Below are positions 33,844 to 42,183 of a DNA stretch of 64,000 nt, piece by piece (the stretch's first letter is position 1; each line of letters starts with the position of its first letter). Under the pieces are notes generated by a model, which saw only the letters and a program-made list of their open reading frames with translations, made no database searches and was not told where the DNA came from. Origin of the DNA: Mesorhizobium sp. J428 (GTDB taxonomy: Bacteria; Pseudomonadota; Alphaproteobacteria; Rhizobiales; Rhizobiaceae). The DNA is taken from assembly GCF_024699925.1 (NCBI RefSeq), contig NZ_JAJOMX010000001.1:3138001-3202000 (forward strand), given 5' to 3'. The translations under genes and the position numbers were made by a program.

Positions 33844-34707
33844 CTATTCGCCGCCGCCCAGCGAATGGACGTAGACCGTCAGTTCCTTGACCGTCGCCTC
33901 GCCGAGGCGCCCGGCCCAGGCCGGCATGATGCCGTGCTTCGGCGCAGCGATCTGCGCGGCGATCGCCGCCTCGTCCTTGCCGCGCAGCCAGATCGCGTCC
34001 GTCAGGTTCGGTGCGCCGAGGTCGCGCATGCCCTTGGCGTCCTCGCCGTGGCAGGAGGCGCAGTTGTCGGCGAAGACCGTCTTGCCGGGCTCGACGAGCG
34101 CGGGGTTCGACGGCGTGCCGCTGAGGGAGACGACGTAGGCCGCGGCGGCCGCGATCTGCTCCTTGTCGAGGGCGTCGGCGAAGGCCGGCATCTCGGAGAA
34201 GCGCGTCGCGTCGTCGGCGGTGAAGCGGATGCCGTGGCTGATCGTGGTCAGGATATCCTCCGGCTTGCCGCCCCACAGCCAGTCGTCGTCGTTGAGGTTC
34301 GGATACCCCGCCGAGCCCGCCGCGCCCGAGCCGTGGCACTGGACGCAGTTGACCTTGAAGGCAGCGGCACCGGCCGAGGTGGCGAACAGCCTCAGCTTCT
34401 CGTCGGCCAGGATCTCGTCGATCGGCTTCGACGCGATTGCCGCCGCATAGTCGCCCTTGGCGGCCTGCGCCGCCGCGAGCTCGTTCTTGATCTCGACGCG
34501 GCTCGAATAGCCAAGCACGCCCTTGGTGGCGGAGGTGAGCATCGGCCAGGCCGGATAGGCGATGGTGTAGGCAAGCGCCCACAGGATCGTGGCGTAGAAG
34601 GTCCAGACCCACCACCTGGGCAGGGGATTGTTCAGCTCCCTGATGCCATCCCACTCGTGTCCGGTCGTGTCGACGCCGGAAAGTTCGTCGATGTGCTTCT
34701 CGCTCAT
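33844..34707 (-). CDS. ccoP: cbb3 cytochrome oxidase dihaem subunit CcoP
   Basis: The 287-residue protein has an N-terminal membrane region around residues 31-55 and two c-type haem sites, C121-VQ-C-H125 and C216-AS-C-H220. It carries electrons from the bc1 complex into the oxidase from the periplasmic side. It starts one base after the ccoQ stop and is the last gene of ccoNOQP, followed by a clear terminator. Confidence 0.96.
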   Translation of the reverse strand: MSEKHIDELSGVDTTGHEWDGIRELNNPLPRWWVWTFYATILWALAYTIAYPAWPMLTSATKGVLGYSSRVEIKNELAAAQAAKGDYAAAIASKPIDEILADEKLRLFATSAGAAAFKVNCVQCHGSGAAGSAGYPNLNDDDWLWGGKPEDILTTISHGIRFTADDATRFSEMPAFADALDKEQIAAAAAYVVSLSGTPSNPALVEPGKTVFADNCASCHGEDAKGMRDLGAPNLTDAIWLRGKDEAAIAAQIAAPKHGIMPAWAGRLGEATVKELTVYVHSLGGGE

Positions 34708-34708
34708 G

Positions 34709-34861
34709 TCAGTCGTCCTTGAGAGGGATTTGCGCCGCTTCCTCGGAAGCCTTGCGGCTGCCGGGGCGGAACGCGAAGAGGATCACGCCGATGAAGAAGA
34801 CGGTCATCGCGGCGAGGGCCCAGCTGTCGGCGAATTCGCGCATCACGGTGTAGGTTTCCAT
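34709..34861 (-). CDS. ccoQ: cbb3 oxidase small subunit CcoQ/FixQ
   Basis: A 50-residue single-helix protein, METYTVMREFADSWALAAMT then VFFIGVILFAFRPGSRKA, matching CcoQ/FixQ in size, helix position and the FRPGS turn. CcoQ stabilises the core complex. It sits between ccoO and ccoP as expected. Confidence 0.93.
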   Translation of the reverse strand: METYTVMREFADSWALAAMTVFFIGVILFAFRPGSRKASEEAAQIPLKDD

Positions 34862-34870
34862 GATCGCCTC

Positions 34871-35602
34871 CTATCGCGCGCCGGCGGTGTCGTCGTAGGT
34901 CGAGAAGTCGACCAGCGTGCCGAGCATCTGGAGATAGGCGACCAGCGCGTCCATCTCGGTGACAGCGGCCGGGTTGCCGTCGAAGTCGCCCAGCTTCGCC
35001 TTCGGGTAGCGCGCCGTGACGCCGGACGTGTCGGCGTTGGGGTCGGCCTGGGCGAGGAAGTCCGCCTGGGCGTTGTCGATCATCTCCTCGCTGTAGGGCA
35101 CGCCGACGCGGGTGTTGGCCACCAGATGCGTCGAGATCGTCGCCGGGTCGATCGTCGCCGAGGACAGGAAGGCGTAGCTCGGCATGATCGATTCCGGCAC
35201 CACCGAGCGCGGCTCGGTCAGGTGCTGGACGTGCCACTCGTTCGAGTAGCGGTCGCCGACGCGGGCGAGGTCCGGCCCCGACCGCTTCGAGCCCCACTGG
35301 AAGGGATGGTCGTACATCGATTCCGCCGCGAGGCTGTAATGGCCGTAGCGTTCGACCTCGTCGCGGAAGGGACGGATCATCTGCGAGTGGCAGACGTAGC
35401 AGCCCTCGCGGATGTAGATGTTGCGTCCGGCGAGCTCCAGCGGCGAGTAGGGCCGCATCCCCTCCACCTTCTCGATGGTGTTCTCGAGATAGAAGAGGGG
35501 CGCGATCTCGACGATGCCGCCGACGGTGACCACCAGGAGAGAACCCACGAGCAGGAGCGTCGCGTTCTTCTCGAGGATGGCATGCTTTTCAATCAGTGCC
35601 AT
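34871..35602 (-). CDS. ccoO: cbb3 cytochrome oxidase monohaem subunit CcoO
   Basis: A 243-residue protein with an N-terminal helix (residues about 15-37) and one c-type haem site, C68-YV-C71-H72. The segments [18 protein letters not shown] and [17 protein letters not shown] [19 protein letters not shown] are typical of CcoO/FixO. It passes electrons from CcoP to CcoN. Confidence 0.96.
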
Positions 35603-35611
35603 GGTCGGCTC

Positions 35612-37228
35612 CTATTCGGCAGGCTGGAGGGCAGGCGAAGGTGAGCGACCGCCGATCGGCTCCTCCTCGCGCTGACGACCGAGGATGGTCATCGTGATGT
35701 TGAAGGCCATGATCAGCGCGCCGACGAGATAGAGAGCGCCGCCGAGCGCACGCATGACGTAGTAGGGATGCATGGCCGCGACTGTCTCTGCGAAGGAGTA
35801 GACCAGGAAGCCCTGATCATCGTATTCGCGCCACATCAGGCCCTGCATGATGCCCGACACCCACATCACGGCCGCGTAGACCACGATGCCGAGGGTGGCG
35901 AGCCAGAAGTGCCACGTCACCATGCGCACCGAGTAGAGCCGCTCGCGGTTCCACAGCTTCGGCACCATGTAGTAGATGGCGGCGAAGGAGATCAGGCCGA
36001 CCCAGCCGAGCGCGCCGGAATGCACGTGGCCGATGGTCCAGTCGGTGTAGTGGCTGAGCGAGTTGACCGCCTTGATCGACATCACCGGACCCTCGAAGGT
36101 CGACATGCCGTAGAAGGCGATCGCCATCACCATCATGCGGATGATCGGATCGGTGCGGATCTTGTCCCAGGCGCCCGAGAGCGTCATCAGGCCGTTGATC
36201 ATGCCGCCCCACGAGGGCATCCACAGCATGATCGAGAACACCATGCCGAGCGTCTGCGCCCAGTCGGGCAGCGCCGTGTAGTGCAGGTGGTGCGGGCCGG
36301 CCCAGATGTAGAGGAAGATCAGCGCCCAAAAGTGGATGATCGACAGCCGGTAGGAATAGACCGGGCGGTTGGCCTGCTTCGGCACGAAGTAGTACATCAT
36401 GCCGAGGAAGCCGGCGGTGAGGAAGAAGCCGACCGCGTTGTGGCCGTACCACCACTGGGTCAGCGCATCCTGCACGCCCGAGAAGGCCGAGTAGCTCTTG
36501 ATACCCGTGATCGAGACCGGGATCGCCAGGTTGTTCACCACGTGCAGCATCGCGATGGTGACGATGAAGGACAGGTAGAACCAGTTGGCGACGTAGATAT
36601 GCGGTTCCTTGCGCTTCAGGATCGTGCCGAGGAACACGACGAGATAAGCAACCCAGACGATCGTCAGCCAGAGATCGACGTACCATTCGGGCTCGGCATA
36701 TTCGCGGCCCTGCGTGATGCCGAGCAGGTAGCCGGTGGCGGCCATGACGATGAAGAGCTGGTAGCCCCAGAAGACGAACCAGGCGAGGTCGCCGCCGAAC
36801 AGGCGGGCGCGGCTGGTGCGCTGCACGACGTAGAAGGATGTCGCGATCAGCGCGTTGCCGCCGAAGGCGAAGATGACCGCCGAGGTGTGCAGCGGCCGCA
36901 TGCGGCCGAAATTGAACCAGGGCTCGATGTTGAGGTCGGGATAGGCGAGCTGGAGCGCCACGACGACGCCGACCAGGAAGCCCACGACACCCCAGAACAT
37001 GGTGGCGATCGCGCCGTAGCGGATCGGCCCGTCCAGATAGGCGGACTTGTCGACGGTGGCGGCCGGCGAAAGCGCTGTCGTGCGCATCAGCACGATCGTG
37101 CTGGCACCGAGCACGAAGAACAGCACCCACATGTGTTGTGCGAAAAGGTTGTCGGTGGCGAAAGCCGCGCCGAGCAGCGCGACGAAGGCGAAGAGCCCAA
37201 CGCCGATGATGTGTGGTCCGTATCTCAT
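35612..37228 (-). CDS. ccoN: cbb3 cytochrome oxidase catalytic subunit CcoN
   Basis: The 538-residue protein has about twelve membrane helices and the conserved histidines that hold haem b, haem b3 and CuB, for example in [31 protein letters not shown] and [17 protein letters not shown]. It reduces oxygen to water with high affinity and pumps protons. It begins ccoNOQP, and an anaerobox lies about 80 bases before its start. Confidence 0.97.
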
Positions 37229-37376: not shown

Positions 37377-37907
37377 ATGAACATCACGAGGTCGAAGCCT
37401 GCCGAGGGGTGCGGCGCGTCGCCCGCATGCCCTCTGTCGGCCGCCTGCGTGCCCGATCAGGCCATGCCGTGCGAGGACGTCTCGCACCTCCATGACGAGA
37501 AGCTGGCACTGTGTGATGCGCTGGAGGCGATCGCCGATTCACTGCCCGGACAGGTCGACCGCTTCGAATGCCTGCGCGTCGGCGCGATCCTGGCGCCGGC
37601 CATCCGCCGCAGCCATGCGATCGAGGAGAGCAGGATCTTCCCTGTCTTCGAGACGGCCTCGGCCGCGCCGGGCAGGGCGAGTTCGGTGGCGCGGCTCAAG
37701 GCCGAGCACCTGGCCGACGAATGCGCGGCGGCCGACGTGTCCGAGGAATTGCTGCGGGTCGGCCATGGCGGCGAGATCGGCAATCCGGAGGCGCTCGGCT
37801 TCATGCTGAGGGCCCTGTTCGAGGCGATGCGCCGCCACGTCGCCTTCGAGCGCGAGCACATCATGCCCACGATCGGCCCTCTCGACAGCCTAGATCGCGC
37901 CGGCTGA
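37377..37907 (+). CDS. Hemerythrin HHE domain protein with N-terminal cysteine cluster
   Basis: The 176-residue protein has a four-helix HHE domain with iron-ligand type residues in HLHDEK, RRSHAIEESRIFP, LKAEHLADE and RRHVAFEREHIMP. Before it, residues 12, 18, 24 and 32 are all cysteines (C-x5-C-x5-C-x7-C), an arrangement that could bind metal or an Fe-S cluster. HHE proteins sense or carry oxygen or NO. GGAG seven bases before the ATG supports start 37377. Its divergence from ccoN across an anaerobox points to a role at low oxygen. Confidence 0.85.
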   Translation: MNITRSKPAEGCGASPACPLSAACVPDQAMPCEDVSHLHDEKLALCDALEAIADSLPGQVDRFECLRVGAILAPAIRRSHAIEESRIFPVFETASAAPGRASSVARLKAEHLADECAAADVSEELLRVGHGGEIGNPEALGFMLRALFEAMRRHVAFEREHIMPTIGPLDSLDRAG

Positions 37908-38225
37908 GAGTTTCTCCCGCCAGTCCGCCGCCTTCGCGCGCAGCACCTTGTCGGCCGTGAAGCCGAGCGTATCGTCATCTACCAGTTCAAGCGGTTCGAG
38001 CGAGAAGGCGTCTTCGCCGTCGCGTTTCCACGCCGCCTGCAGCGCCTTGTTCATGTGGCTGCCGGCGCGCAGCGTGAACCAGATGCGGTTGCGGATCATG
38101 TCGATGTCGGGCGTGTGCCCGACCCACGCCTCGCCCGAGCCGGCCGAGCGCACGACATAGATGGCGGCAGTGCTTTCCCGCTTCTTGTAGGCCGCGACCG
38201 CGGCGCGCCTGGCTTCGCGTTCCAT
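37890..38225 (-). CDS. GIY-YIG nuclease family protein
   Basis: A 111-residue protein whose core AAIYVVRSAGSGEAWVGHTP is a variant GIY-YIG motif (here IYV...WVG), followed by IRNRIWFTLRAGSHMNKALQ and a conserved WKRDGEDAF. Small single-domain GIY-YIG proteins like this are common in Rhizobiales and have no assigned substrate. Its last 18 bases overlap the convergent hemerythrin gene. Confidence 0.8.
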   Translation of the reverse strand: MEREARRAAVAAYKKRESTAAIYVVRSAGSGEAWVGHTPDIDMIRNRIWFTLRAGSHMNKALQAAWKRDGEDAFSLEPLELVDDDTLGFTADKVLRAKAADWREKLSAGAI

Positions 38226-38342: not shown

Positions 38343-38861
38343 ATGGACGACAGCCAGAGACTGACGGTTTTCGAGGGCGACAGGATCGCCTTCTCCGGCC
38401 CGGCCGACGAGGCAGGCCGCTGGGTTCGCGCCGCGCTGCAGTCCGATCCCGGCAGGATCTTCCTCGCCCTGGACGACGCCGACGGCCGCGTGGTCGACGT
38501 CGACCTGCGCGAAGAGTCGGCGCAGCCGGCGCGCGGGCGGGGCCGGCCGAAGCTCGGCGTCTCGGCGCGGGAGGTGACGCTGCTGCCTCGCCATTGGGAC
38601 TGGCTCGCTGCACAGCCGGGCGGCGCTTCGGTGACGCTGCGGCGCCTGGTCGAGGAGGCACGCCGGTCGGACGCCCAGGCCGCGCATGCCGTGCGCGAGG
38701 CCGCCTACCGCGCCATGACCACGCTCGCCGGCGACCGCCCCGGCTACGAGGAGGCGGTGCGGGCGCTCTATGCGGGGGAGGCGGAGCGTTTTCGGGAGCT
38801 GACCGGGGCATGGCCGCCCGACATCCGGGATTTCGTGCGCCGGGTGGCGCCGGCCGGCTAG
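38343..38861 (+). CDS. DUF2239 family protein
   Basis: This 172-residue soluble protein has the recognisable DUF2239 core: RGRPKLGVSAREVTLLPRHW then DWLAAQPGGASVTLRRLVEE. RGRPKLG resembles an AT-hook and the segment after it resembles an RHH/antitoxin-like DNA contact, but no function is known. Its stop overlaps that of the convergent MetAP gene (CTAG). Confidence 0.82.
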   Translation: MDDSQRLTVFEGDRIAFSGPADEAGRWVRAALQSDPGRIFLALDDADGRVVDVDLREESAQPARGRGRPKLGVSAREVTLLPRHWDWLAAQPGGASVTLRRLVEEARRSDAQAAHAVREAAYRAMTTLAGDRPGYEEAVRALYAGEAERFRELTGAWPPDIRDFVRRVAPAG

Positions 38862-39640
38862 GCCGCGGACCGCATCGCTGCTCCCGGTTCGCCGGCGCGC
38901 AGTGTCAGCACGGAGACGCCGGACGCGGTGACGGCGACGGTATGCTCGAACTGGGCGGACAGGGATCCGTCGCGCGTCACGACGGTCCAGCCGTCGGCCT
39001 CGGTCCTGACGCTGCGGCGGCCGCGGTTGAGCATCGGCTCGATGGTGAAGACCATGCCTTCGCGCAGCGTGAGGCCTGTTCCCGGCTTGCCGAAGTGGAC
39101 GACCTGCGGCTCCTCGTGCATCTGGCGGCCGATGCCATGGCCGCAATATTCGTGCACGACGGAATAGCCGTTCTTCTTGGCGTGCCGTCCGATCGCCCAG
39201 CCGATGTCGCCAAGCTGCGCGCCCGGGCGAACCGCGCGGATGCCCAGCCACATCGCCTCATAGGTGGTCTGGACCAGCTTCCTCGCGGCCGGGTTCACCT
39301 CGCCGACGAGGTAGGTCTTGCTGGAATCCGCGATGTAGCCGTTCTTCTCCAGCGTGATGTCGAAATTGACGATGTCGCCGTCGCGCAACACGTCCGCCTG
39401 CGACGGGACGCCGTGGCAGACCACCTCGTTCAGCGAGGAATTCAGCACGAAGCCATAGCCGTACTGGCCCTTGCTCGCGGGGCGGGCCTGGAGGTCGTGG
39501 ACGATGAAATGCTCGACCATGTCGTTGACTTCGAGCGTCGACAGGCCGGCGAGCGGGGTGCGGTCGAGGAGTTCGAAGACGGAGGCGAGCAGCCGGCCGG
39601 ATTCGGCCAGCAGCGCGAGTTCCTGCGGCTGCTTGGTCAT
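38858..39640 (-). CDS. map: Type I methionyl aminopeptidase (coupled to a ParD-like gene)
   Basis: The 260-residue enzyme has the pita-bread metal ligands in NFDITLEKNGYIADSSKTYL (two Asp), EYCGHGIGRQMHEEP (His), FTIEPML and FEHTVAVT (Glu). It removes the initiator methionine from new proteins. Its ATG (39640) overlaps the stop of the ParD-like gene by four bases, so translation is coupled to that putative DNA-binding protein. A housekeeping MetAP probably exists elsewhere in the genome; this copy looks like part of a two-gene module. Confidence 0.92.
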   Translation of the reverse strand: MTKQPQELALLAESGRLLASVFELLDRTPLAGLSTLEVNDMVEHFIVHDLQARPASKGQYGYGFVLNSSLNEVVCHGVPSQADVLRDGDIVNFDITLEKNGYIADSSKTYLVGEVNPAARKLVQTTYEAMWLGIRAVRPGAQLGDIGWAIGRHAKKNGYSVVHEYCGHGIGRQMHEEPQVVHFGKPGTGLTLREGMVFTIEPMLNRGRRSVRTEADGWTVVTRDGSLSAQFEHTVAVTASGVSVLTLRAGEPGAAMRSAA

Positions 39641-39849
39641 GCTTCGCCGACCGCCAGCGACTGCGCCGAGACGCCGGCGGAGCTGAGCTCGCGCGCGATG
39701 ATCTCGCCGAAGCTGAGCGTCGGATTGGTCTCGCACAGCATGCCGATCCTGATCCAGTAGACGGCCTGCGCATTGATCGACCGGCACGACACCTTGCTCG
39801 CCCGGCGCAGCTGGTCGTGCAGATCGTCGTCTATGTTCACGATGCCCAT
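39637..39849 (-). CDS. ParD-like antitoxin family protein (ribbon-helix-helix)
   Basis: A 70-residue protein, MGIVNIDDDLHDQLRRASKV then SCRSINAQAVYWIRIGMLCE, typical of the ParD-like (PF11903 type) ribbon-helix-helix group: a short beta strand, then two helices with SINAQA at the turn. These proteins are expected to dimerise and bind DNA. GGAGCG precedes the ATG. No ParE-type toxin follows; instead a MetAP gene overlaps its stop. Repeats in its promoter (39859-39899) fit self-regulation. Confidence 0.8.
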   Translation of the reverse strand: MGIVNIDDDLHDQLRRASKVSCRSINAQAVYWIRIGMLCETNPTLSFGEIIARELSSAGVSAQSLAVGEA

Positions 39850-39858
39850 CGGGGCGCT

Positions 39859-39899
39859 CCATATATGGTTCGTATATATAGCGTATATAGATCGTATGG
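39859..39899 (-). promoter_or_regulatory. Helically phased repeats, likely ParD-like operator
   Basis: CGTATATA (39871), CGTATATA (39882) and CGTATGG (39893) recur at exactly 11-base intervals, and a perfect palindrome CCATATATGG (39859-39868) precedes them by 12 bases. The block is a strikingly AT-rich island in GC-rich DNA, directly upstream of the ParD-like gene. Tandem half-sites on one face of the helix are how ribbon-helix-helix proteins bind. Confidence 0.65.
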
Positions 39900-39959
39900 A
39901 AAGATTCCAAGGGGGCGTTCGGCCTAGCTTGGGGTGCTACGCAAGCAGTGGCCCGCCGC

Positions 39960-40700
39960 TCAGCTCCCCGCCCTTATCTCCAGCCGTTCCAGGTTCGGCA
40001 CGAAGACGTGGCGGTTGCTTTCGATGACGATCACCCCGTCGGTCCGGAGCTTGGTGATCTGCCGGCTGACCGTCTCGATGGTGAGCCCGAGGAAGTCGGC
40101 GATGTCGGCGCGCGTCATCGGCAGGTCGAAGGTTGCCGATGCGCTGTCCGGCTCGGCGGTCGGATCGATATGGCGCGCGATCATCAGGAGATAGCTCGCG
40201 ACCTTCTCGGCTGCGGTCTTGCGGCCGAGCGTGACCATCCAGTCGCGCGCCTCGTCGAGTTCCTTCAGCGTCTGCTCGAGCAGCCTGTGTTCGAGGCCGG
40301 GCGATTCACGGATCATCCGATCGATCGTGGACTTCGGGAAAGAGCACAGCAGCACCGGTGTGGCAGCCTCGGCGGTGATCCGGCTCTCGGACTTGAAGGG
40401 CCTGCCAAGGAAGTCGGGCGCGAACTGCAGGCCGACGATCTGCTGCCGCCCGTCGGCGAGCGTCTTGGTGAGCTTCACCACGCCGGACAGGATGTTCGAA
40501 TAGCTCTCGATCCGCTCGGCGTCGGCAACGAGCTCCTGTCCCTCGGCTGCCTTGTGCTTCCACGAGGTCTTCGACAATGCGGTAAGCTGCTCGGGCGTCA
40601 GCGCGCCGCAGATGCCGCGGTGCCGCGCCTCGCAGGACAGACAGAGCACGGGCGTTCCGTCGGTGTGTACGTCTTTTCTCAGGTTCTGCGTGCCCATCAT
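39960..40700 (-). CDS. fnrN: FnrN-type oxygen-sensing regulator (Crp/Fnr family)
   Basis: The 246-residue protein has the FNR cluster cysteines C20, C23 and C31 (C-x2-C-x7-C) plus C119, a cyclic-nucleotide-binding-like core, and a C-terminal helix-turn-helix DIADFLGLTIETVSRQITKL with the E-x2-SR contacts that read TTGAT. It should hold a [4Fe-4S] cluster in low oxygen and activate anaerobox promoters. The cysteines distinguish it from FixK. An anaerobox 72 bases before its own start suggests autoregulation. The start could be either of two adjacent ATGs (40700 or 40697). Confidence 0.93.
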   Translation of the reverse strand: MMGTQNLRKDVHTDGTPVLCLSCEARHRGICGALTPEQLTALSKTSWKHKAAEGQELVADAERIESYSNILSGVVKLTKTLADGRQQIVGLQFAPDFLGRPFKSESRITAEAATPVLLCSFPKSTIDRMIRESPGLEHRLLEQTLKELDEARDWMVTLGRKTAAEKVASYLLMIARHIDPTAEPDSASATFDLPMTRADIADFLGLTIETVSRQITKLRTDGVIVIESNRHVFVPNLERLEIRAGS

Positions 40701-40771
40701 CGCCTCTGCCTTTGAGTTAACACCTCGGAATGGCTTTCGCGCTGCGGCAGACTGTCAGACCCGTCCGGACC

Positions 40772-40785
40772 TTGATCCACGTCAA
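40772..40785. promoter_or_regulatory. FNR/FixK anaerobox between fnrN and hemN
   Basis: TTGAT-CCAC-GTCAA lies between the divergent fnrN and hemN genes, about 78 bases from the former and 58 from the latter, measured from its centre. It differs from the ideal site by one base and matches the ccoN box in both half-sites. Confidence 0.8.
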
Positions 40786-40836
40786 CGTGCGGGGCGTGCG
40801 AATGGTGCATCTGTCAGGCGAACAGAGGATCAGGCA

Positions 40837-42183
40837 GTGACATTCGCCCAGACCAGCCGCCTTGCCGAGACCGCGCCGCGCTACACCAGCTATCCGACAG
40901 CACCGCATTTCCACACCGGGATCGACGAGGAGGCCGTGACGCGCTGGATCGACGCCATTCCCGACGGCGACGCGGTGTCGCTCTATCTCCATGTCCCGTT
41001 CTGCGACCGGCTGTGCTGGTTCTGTGCCTGCCACACCAAGCAGACGCTGCGCTATGAGCCCGTCTCCCGCTTCCTGCGTTCGCTGCATGCCGAGATCGAG
41101 ACCGTCGCGGCGGGCATCGGCACGCGCACCCGCGTCGCCGCGATCCATTTCGGCGGCGGTTCGCCGACCATGCTGGCGCCCGCCGACTTCCGCGAGTTGA
41201 TGGCCCGCATCAGGGCCGGCTTCAAGGGCGCCGACACGGCCGAGCTTTCGGTCGAGATCGATCCCAACGACATGACGGAGGAGAAGCTCGACGTGATGGC
41301 CGGCGCTGGGCTGACGCGCGCCAGCCTTGGCGTGCAGGACTTCGACCCCAGGGTGCAGCGCGCGATCAACCGCGAGCAGTCCTTCGAGCTGACGCGCGCG
41401 ATCGTGCAGGGCCTGCGCAACCGCGGCGTCCGCTCCCTCAACCTCGACCTGCTCTACGGCCTGCCGCACCAGACGGTCGACAGCGTCATGGCGACCGTCG
41501 GCCAGGCACTGACGCTGCGGCCGGACCGGATCGCGCTGTTCGGCTATGCGCATGTGCCCTGGTTCAAGAAGCACCAGACGATGATCGACGAGGCGGTGCT
41601 TCCGGACGGCGCGGCGCGGCTGGAGCAGTCGCTGGCCGCCGCGCGGCTGGTGATGGAGGCCGGCTACGCGCCGATCGGCATCGACCATTTCGCGCTGCCG
41701 TCGGACAGCCTGACGCTGGCGGCGCAGGCCGGCCGGCTGCACCGCAATTTTCAGGGCTATACCGACGACCCCTGCGAGACGCTGATCGGACTTGGCCCCT
41801 CCTCGGTCAGCCGCTACCGCGAGGGCTATGCGCAGAACATCGCCTCAACGCTGGACTACCAGCGCCAGGTCGATACCGGCCATCTGGCGATCGCCCGCGG
41901 CGTCGAGCTGACGGAGGACGACAAGGTGCGCTCCTGGGTGATCGAGCGGCTGATGTGCGAGTTCGGCTTCTCGTCGGAGGAGGCGCTGGCGCGCTTCGGC
42001 CGGGCCTGCGCGCCGGTGCTTTCGGAGGCGGCGCTGCTTGCGCAGACCGACCGCGACGCGCTGCGCGAGAAGGGCGGCAGCTACGTCGTCCCCGCCGGTG
42101 CACGGCCCTATGTGCGCACGATCGCCGCGCGCTTCGACGCCTATCTCGCGCGCGGCACGGCGCGGCATTCGCTGGCGGTTTAG
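40837..42183 (+). CDS. hemN: Oxygen-independent coproporphyrinogen III oxidase
   Basis: The 448-residue radical-SAM enzyme has the cluster motif C56-DRL-C60-WF-C63 preceded by LYLHVPFC, then HFGGGSPTML and DLLYGLPHQT. It makes protoporphyrinogen IX without oxygen, supporting haem synthesis for the cbb3 oxidase when oxygen is scarce. The start is a GTG at 40837 preceded by GAGGATC; no ATG gives the conserved N-terminus (MTFAQTSRLAETAPRYTSYP). It follows an anaerobox. Confidence 0.95.
   Translation: MTFAQTSRLAETAPRYTSYPTAPHFHTGIDEEAVTRWIDAIPDGDAVSLYLHVPFCDRLCWFCACHTKQTLRYEPVSRFLRSLHAEIETVAAGIGTRTRVAAIHFGGGSPTMLAPADFRELMARIRAGFKGADTAELSVEIDPNDMTEEKLDVMAGAGLTRASLGVQDFDPRVQRAINREQSFELTRAIVQGLRNRGVRSLNLDLLYGLPHQTVDSVMATVGQALTLRPDRIALFGYAHVPWFKKHQTMIDEAVLPDGAARLEQSLAAARLVMEAGYAPIGIDHFALPSDSLTLAAQAGRLHRNFQGYTDDPCETLIGLGPSSVSRYREGYAQNIASTLDYQRQVDTGHLAIARGVELTEDDKVRSWVIERLMCEFGFSSEEALARFGRACAPVLSEAALLAQTDRDALREKGGSYVVPAGARPYVRTIAARFDAYLARGTARHSLAV

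Follow-up and report, generated by a model that had tools for sequence, protein, structure and literature searches.

A ParD-like protein paired with an accessory methionine aminopeptidase across Pseudomonadota: a predicted auto-repressed operon

In the window (the whole stretch of DNA analysed, 64,000 nucleotides of Mesorhizobium sp. J428), a ParD-like gene and a gene for a type I methionine aminopeptidase (MetAP) are predicted to form an auto-repressed two-gene operon serving a specialised accessory MetAP. The regulator would be a ribbon-helix-helix (RHH) protein from antitoxin stock. We judge this reading, in which the pair is not a toxin-antitoxin pair, to be likely. The genes and their junction are as follows.

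39637..39849, minus strand: ParD-like gene, 70 aa, starting Met-Gly-Ile-Val; PF11903, MetAP-linked branch; putative RHH repressor.
38858..39640, minus strand: accessory type I MetAP gene, 260 aa; TIGR00500; metal ligands intact, P1 pocket altered.
39637..39640, minus strand: ATGA overlap (4 bp) of the ParD-like and MetAP genes; read from sequence.

A preliminary description of this DNA had claimed a 70-residue ParD-like gene that overlaps a MetAP gene by 4 bp, and this is borne out by the profile scores (PF11903, 72.6 bits against a Pfam gathering cut-off of 23; TIGR00500 equivalog, 286.9 bits against a cut-off of 171.35) and by the shared ATGA at 39637-39640. In the open reading frame list the MetAP frame begins at a TTG further upstream and is 350 aa long; its start was placed at the ATG at 39640 by comparison with relatives. 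The overlap probably couples translation of the two genes; a gap of -4, the ATGA-type overlap, is seen in 73 of 80 named relatives (the best 80 of at least 588). Downstream, the MetAP gene and a convergent DUF2239 gene (38343-38861, plus strand) have the CTAG at 38858-38861 in common, with overlapping stop codons. Directly upstream of the pair is an Fnr/FixK-like regulator gene on the minus strand, followed by a divergent radical-SAM gene (HemN-like by eye), both in the region 39960-42183. Cytochrome oxidase-like genes (by eye) are found at about 33844-37228, and positions 37890-38225 hold a 111-aa ORF that has no Pfam match and is GIY-YIG-like by eye.

PF11903 was searched in 398 genomes of the window's phylum, Pseudomonadota (109 with a match), and in 297 genomes of its order (25 with a match). 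The 134 places examined comprise 113 of 117 from the phylum set, the other four being weak or partial matches that were left out, and 26 of 26 from the order set, with five shared; they were sorted by the motif [RK]S.N[AS]QA into 62 with the motif and 72 without it. In the motif-bearing branch, a MetAP gene is next downstream on the same strand in 62/62 loci, window included, at gaps of -8 to +37 bp, with one of 103. These linked loci are distributed over 61 genomes (48 of 398 and 18 of 297, five shared). In the branch without the motif, a MetAP within 200 bp downstream is found in 0/72 places, of which 69 are informative, as L047, L087 and L130 have less than 100 bp of downstream sequence. 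Beyond the 200-bp criterion, a MetAP gene lies 778 bp downstream in the unlinked locus L109.

Named genomes were scanned as well, with at least 588 relatives found; the best 80, ranked by similarity to the window, were kept and include Kaistia, Mesorhizobium, Massilia, Paraburkholderia, Stenotrophomonas and Pseudomonas. The survey of adjacency that had been proposed thus comes to 62/62 linked loci and 80/80 of the best 80 named relatives with a MetAP beside the ParD-like gene, and a pair private to the window's strain is ruled out by the surveys of phylum, order and named relatives. In the reverse search, a close MetAP (of clade A1, described below; E up to 1e-85) was found in 35/398 genomes, 34 of which belong to the linked set. 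The exception is genome G279, with an A1-type MetAP (L303, 1302-2081) and no ParD-like frame upstream; this orphan has at most one operator-like unit, by eye. Genome G420 carries two ParD-like/MetAP pairs (L032, L054) as well as another MetAP.

The unlinked PF11903 branch has 63 partner frames, and the ten that were classified are seven ParE-like (PF15781) and three Zeta (PF06414) toxins; unlinked loci with PF11903 genes before toxins include L036, L128 and L131. The preliminary description had placed the MetAP gene where a toxin gene would normally be, an apt phrase given that these ten sampled sister genes precede ParE-like or Zeta toxins. ParD_like-Zeta pairs are already on record in PMC6362051, PMC5728571 and PMC6504116. 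PF11903 is therefore an antitoxin scaffold shared by at least three kinds of partner. The ParE-like- and Zeta-paired antitoxins resemble the regulator described here in Pfam family and in being the upstream gene of a two-gene operon, mostly with small gaps or overlaps. However, the MetAP-linked branch has its own motif and Met-Gly start, its partner is a protein-maturation enzyme, and its genes follow an 11-bp CRTATAYG array that is absent from 71/71 upstreams of the other branch. In the window, the array and the putative promoter that it overlaps consist of the following elements.

39893..39900, no strand assigned: operator unit 1 (distal), 5/8 to CRTATAYG.
39882..39889, no strand assigned: operator unit 2, holding the putative -10 TATACG, 7/8 to CRTATAYG.
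39871..39878, no strand assigned: operator unit 3, 7/8 to CRTATAYG.
39860..39867, no strand assigned: operator unit 4 (proximal), core of the previously noted palindrome CCATATATGG, 8/8 to CRTATAYG.
39905..39910, minus strand: putative -35 TTGGAA, with a 17-bp spacer to the -10; read from sequence.
39882..39887, minus strand: putative -10 TATACG, inside operator unit 2; read from sequence.
39857..39860, minus strand: GGAG, likely ribosome-binding site, 7 nt from the ATG and touching unit 4; read from sequence.

The four 8-bp units start at 39860, 39871, 39882 and 39893 (plus strand), exactly 11 bp apart. The CGTAT motifs of the preliminary description start exactly where it had put them (39871, 39882 and 39893). 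The palindrome that it reported 12 bases before these repeats is also present (CCATATATGG, 39859-39868), but belongs to the array: its core CATATATG, which begins at 39860 and keeps the 11-bp register, is the fourth unit.

Arrays were scored as CRTATAYG units at 11-bp spacing within the 100 bases before the start codon, with a maximum of 24 for three units. The window array scores 22/24 for its best three units and 27/32 for four. A three-unit score of at least 20 is reached in 44/62 linked loci and of at least 18 in 56/62, leaving six below 18; among the best 80 of at least 588 named loci, 79 of which have enough upstream sequence to score, the corresponding counts are 68/79, 78/79 and one. 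Three strong units are present in 35/62 linked loci and in 57/79 of the best named loci, and four in 8/62 and 10/79, respectively. None of the 71 upstreams of the unlinked PF11903 branch that could be scored (one of 72 was too short) reaches 18 with three units at 11-bp spacing, and none of the 62 upstreams of unlinked MetAP genes in the same genomes scores above 15. Among 1,240 pooled shuffles of the 62 linked upstreams, none scores 20 or more, and about 0.2% score at least 18. With other spacings (7-10 and 12-16 bp), a score of 20 is found only in three of the best 80 named loci, at 13 bp. At a score of at least 18, the 13-bp spacing gives 16/62 linked and 24/79 of the best named loci and the 9-bp spacing four and nine, with at most one for the remaining spacings; the 13- and 9-bp signals are probably the same TATATA-rich array in shifted register. 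The array is taken as more than chance mainly because it recurs in relatives, and chance is ruled out by the shuffles, the other spacings, the other PF11903 branch and the unlinked MetAP upstreams. The survey of conserved repeats that had been suggested is summarised by the 56/62 MetAP-linked loci and 0/71 of the other branch that reach 18, and the claimed coupling and operator-like phased sites are strongly supported by conservation across Pseudomonadota.

A TTG 15-18 bp before the TATAYG of a unit is seen in 34/56 linked array-bearing loci and in 67/78 array-bearing loci among the best 80 named, with a low background at most other spacers; the other 22/56 linked loci have no TTG at this distance. 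Because the array covers the putative -10, it is strongly suggested that the ParD-like protein regulates its own promoter through this putative operator. A scan of the window's own genome with a two-unit pattern (up to three mismatches) gave 47 forward matches against 53 in a reversed control, with no sign of a regulon, and a large regulon in that genome was rejected, as the forward matches do not exceed the control. Two sites have a single mismatch, the operator itself and a site at contig C4:84458, which has two clear units and is near an IS110-type transposase (by eye).

The RHH repressors MetJ, Arc, CopG and ParD act on tandem operators, in which short repeated sites about one helical turn apart overlap the promoter, as in the putative operator described here. 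The unit sequence and the controlled gene differ, and the present array, like the gene pair, its conservation, the 11-bp spacing and the overlap with the putative promoter, is read from sequence.

At least two type I MetAPs are present in 61/61 linked genomes (59 with two; G420 and G322 with three), and among 40 control genomes without the pair, which were taken from listings and not drawn at random, 33 have one and seven have two. The extra MetAPs of those seven genomes (L296-L302) are about 33-36% identical to the window's, with other P1 and P1' pockets. The linked MetAP resembles the housekeeping type I enzyme (map) in fold family, metal ligands and P1' residues, and differs from it as an extra copy in each of the 61 genomes. 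The solved chain nearest to the window MetAP is 4fo7, presumably the P. aeruginosa MetAP, followed by E. coli-type chains such as 1mat. All seven metal-ligand and catalytic positions, including the catalytic histidines, are intact in 62/62 linked MetAPs, window included, and in 79 or 80 of the best 80 of at least 588 named MetAPs, one of which departs at several catalytic positions. A dead MetAP is, as far as these residues indicate, ruled out for the 62 linked loci.

In a midpoint-rooted tree of the 62 linked MetAPs and 62 unlinked MetAPs from the same genomes, the linked enzymes form two clades: A1 (n=48), which includes the window's, and A2 (n=14), which is nested among unlinked enzymes. 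A single clade of linked MetAPs is rejected by the AU test (p-AU 0.008), and one origin of all linked MetAPs is thereby ruled out. The regulator has therefore had two different MetAPs. Arrays scoring at least 18 are found with both clades (A1 44/48, A2 12/14). The corresponding repressor tree, of 61 linked sequences (L050 left out) and ten of the 72 unlinked, has only 62 columns; the 61 linked sequences are split from the ten unlinked with full support (100/100), and over these 62 columns the repressors of A2 MetAPs group together (86/87). Within one regulator lineage, the enzyme has probably been exchanged a single time.

A match to the ParD-like protein is found in 162 records of a plasmid collection, and in the ten that were opened (nine annotated, one unannotated) a MetAP lies beside it in every case, although two of these records, of 5.4 and 4.1 Mb, look like chromosomes. 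One pair (L249) is on the mobilizable Acinetobacter seifertii plasmid pAs1069_a, together with a carbapenemase gene, and another (L248) is on a conjugative Klebsiella plasmid; both are within about 2 kb of insertion-sequence transposases. A phage collection gave no match at E 1e-3. One PHROG of unknown function matches each protein (4.2e-9 for the ParD-like protein), and despite these matches a phage origin was rejected for want of any match in the phage collection. The anti-phage defence models of PADLOC include 0 families for either protein. No neighbour family (frames of at least 100 aa, clear of the pair and at most 2.5 kb away) occurs in more than five of the best 80 named loci of at least 588. 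The pair is thus a self-contained, compact two-gene cassette in varied surroundings. Such a cassette could also reflect hitch-hiking, in which two genes travel together without a functional link, but this is hardly credible for an association that is near-exclusive in both directions and spans two enzyme clades, with a conserved promoter array.

The preliminary description had suggested a toxin-antitoxin-like or an N-terminal-processing switch. In a toxin-antitoxin system, MetAP made in excess would remove methionine from proteins that should keep it, and binding by the ParD-like protein would block the enzyme. In gene order and in its ATGA overlap the pair matches type II modules, and the toxins beside the ten sampled sister genes, the plasmid-collection matches (with MetAP adjoining in all ten opened, two of them chromosome-like at 4-5 Mb) and the PHROG match of the ParD-like protein also fit. 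However, where a type II module has a partner from a known toxin family, the partner here is a MetAP, which looks like a normal enzyme with every catalytic residue kept in 62/62 loci. Each of the 61 linked genomes already has such an enzyme, two different MetAP clades serve as partner, and neither the phage collection at E 1e-3 nor any PADLOC model gave a match. The toxin-antitoxin reading is accordingly left unsupported, and we consider it very unlikely. The predicted auto-repressed operon would work like the regulatory half of a toxin-antitoxin module.

Pocket numbering was checked against an aligned solved chain, which we take to be E. coli MetAP. In 48/48 A1 MetAPs the positions of the methionine (P1) pocket are Ser, Gln, Tyr/Phe, Asn, Met and Trp. 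The E. coli enzyme has Cys59, Tyr62, Tyr65, Cys70, Phe177 and Trp221 (PMC10724148, Table 2). Four of the six residues are thus changed throughout the A1 clade, with Ser, Gln, Asn and Met in place of Cys59, Tyr62, Cys70 and Phe177 of that table; in the window these are S56, Q59, N67 and M174. At the four changed positions, 78 or 79 of the best 80 of at least 588 named MetAPs agree. Unlinked MetAPs have Tyr62 and Cys70 in 62/62 and Phe (55) or Tyr (7) at 177, and are variable at 59 (Thr 27, Pro 19, Cys 9, Asn 7). The A1 clade (48) has this pocket change and the A2 clade (14) does not; A2 MetAPs are nearer normal, with Asn59, Tyr62, Cys70 in 11 or Leu in three, and Tyr177. Both clades conserve the P1' residues, by which residue 2 is read, except for a Tyr/Phe exchange at 168 that occurs in unlinked MetAPs too. 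With its changed P1 pocket, the A1 enzyme probably binds the N-terminal residue in a different way, or is more or less sensitive to oxidation or inhibitors. The extra-copy status, the intact catalytic residues, the altered methionine pocket and the two enzyme clades are all read from the sequences themselves.

Table 2 of PMC5728571 places PF11903 in clan CL0057. In a predicted monomer structure (41 sequences, mean pLDDT 76), an extended N-terminus precedes three helices, at 8-18, 25-41 and 47-57; an RHH protein with a third helix would be expected to have this layout. Searches by fold with the monomer model gave no clear match and no RHH match in the PDB, and a sequence search for a solved relative gave one chance-level hit only (E 0.58). 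Because the model found no RHH match in the PDB, the fold assignment rests on Pfam and on the helix positions.

Taking the nearest start codon, 61/62 linked ParD-like proteins begin Met-Gly-(Ile/Leu)-(Val/Ile) (58 ATG, 2 GTG, 1 TTG), at a fixed distance from the N-terminal strand; the one without this start (L050) looks frameshifted, by eye. A further in-frame ATG is present within 150 nt upstream in 19/62 linked loci, and these starts are therefore likely, not proven. The scan of named genomes used the MGIV start as one pattern, so the Met-Gly observation is drawn from the 62 linked loci. In unlinked PF11903 proteins, the profile match begins 0 to 9 residues after the start, a spread partly owing to a varying match start, and residue 2 (nearest ATG, else another start) is A, P, S, T or V in 67/72, mostly Ala, Pro or Ser.

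Met-Gly is a good MetAP substrate but proves nothing by itself. It could mean that the ParD-like protein senses MetAP activity: the clipped form would repress, and when MetAP activity falls the unclipped form would release the promoter and a spare MetAP would be made. We think this unlikely, and no less so its structural detail, that the new N-terminal glycine would adjoin the DNA-reading strand after clipping. The near-invariant start at a fixed distance from the strand, set against 0-9 residues in the unlinked branch, is consistent with sensing, as are the conserved P1' residues and the retention of regulator and array while the enzyme clade changed. Against it, a clippable residue 2 is also found in 67/72 unlinked PF11903 proteins, and clippability alone is not special; the upstream ATGs in 19/62 linked loci leave the starts as likely only; and structure or DNA contact may be the only reason why Gly2 is kept. 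In addition, N-terminal methionine clipping is usually co-translational and near complete. An elaboration of this idea, which seems quite unlikely, is a feedback circuit in which the repressor would gauge MetAP capacity via its own initiator methionine, at the border of its DNA-reading strand, and a spare MetAP would be released when capacity falls; the A1 pocket, more polar and without cysteine, would then be fit for conditions or N-termini (e.g. oxidised methionine) beyond the housekeeping enzyme.

In the preferred auto-repressed operon, the PF11903 protein would form RHH dimers, which would recognise the palindromic unit CRTATAYG through the N-terminal strand. On an array of three or four units, neighbouring dimers would sit one helical turn from each other and span the -10, and their occupancy of the array would hold expression of the operon down. 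Once repression ends, the coupled MetAP would be made in addition to the housekeeping MetAP. The regulator has a common ancestry with the antitoxins of ParE-like and Zeta toxins, and would here control an enzyme. The binding, the repression, the cooperative occupancy, the inducing condition and a special substrate are the parts of this operon model that we infer.

No description of the ParD-like/MetAP pair was found in the available parts of the open-access literature (including PMC3948609, PMC6796979, PMC6362051, PMC5728571, PMC2701414 and PMC6504116), and the word aminopeptidase is absent from the main texts of PMC2701414 and PMC6504116. MetAP is usually viewed as an essential enzyme with a housekeeping role, and as one that antibacterials might target (PMC3790777). 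If the predicted operon is correct, a widespread second MetAP is under a dedicated repressor, and removal of the N-terminal methionine would be a regulated process. Inhibitors aimed at the housekeeping pocket may then meet a bypass, the pocket being changed in one large clade. A regulator of an antitoxin family here serves an enzyme that is no known toxin, and a ParD-like annotation beside map should therefore not be taken on its own as a sign of a toxin-antitoxin system.
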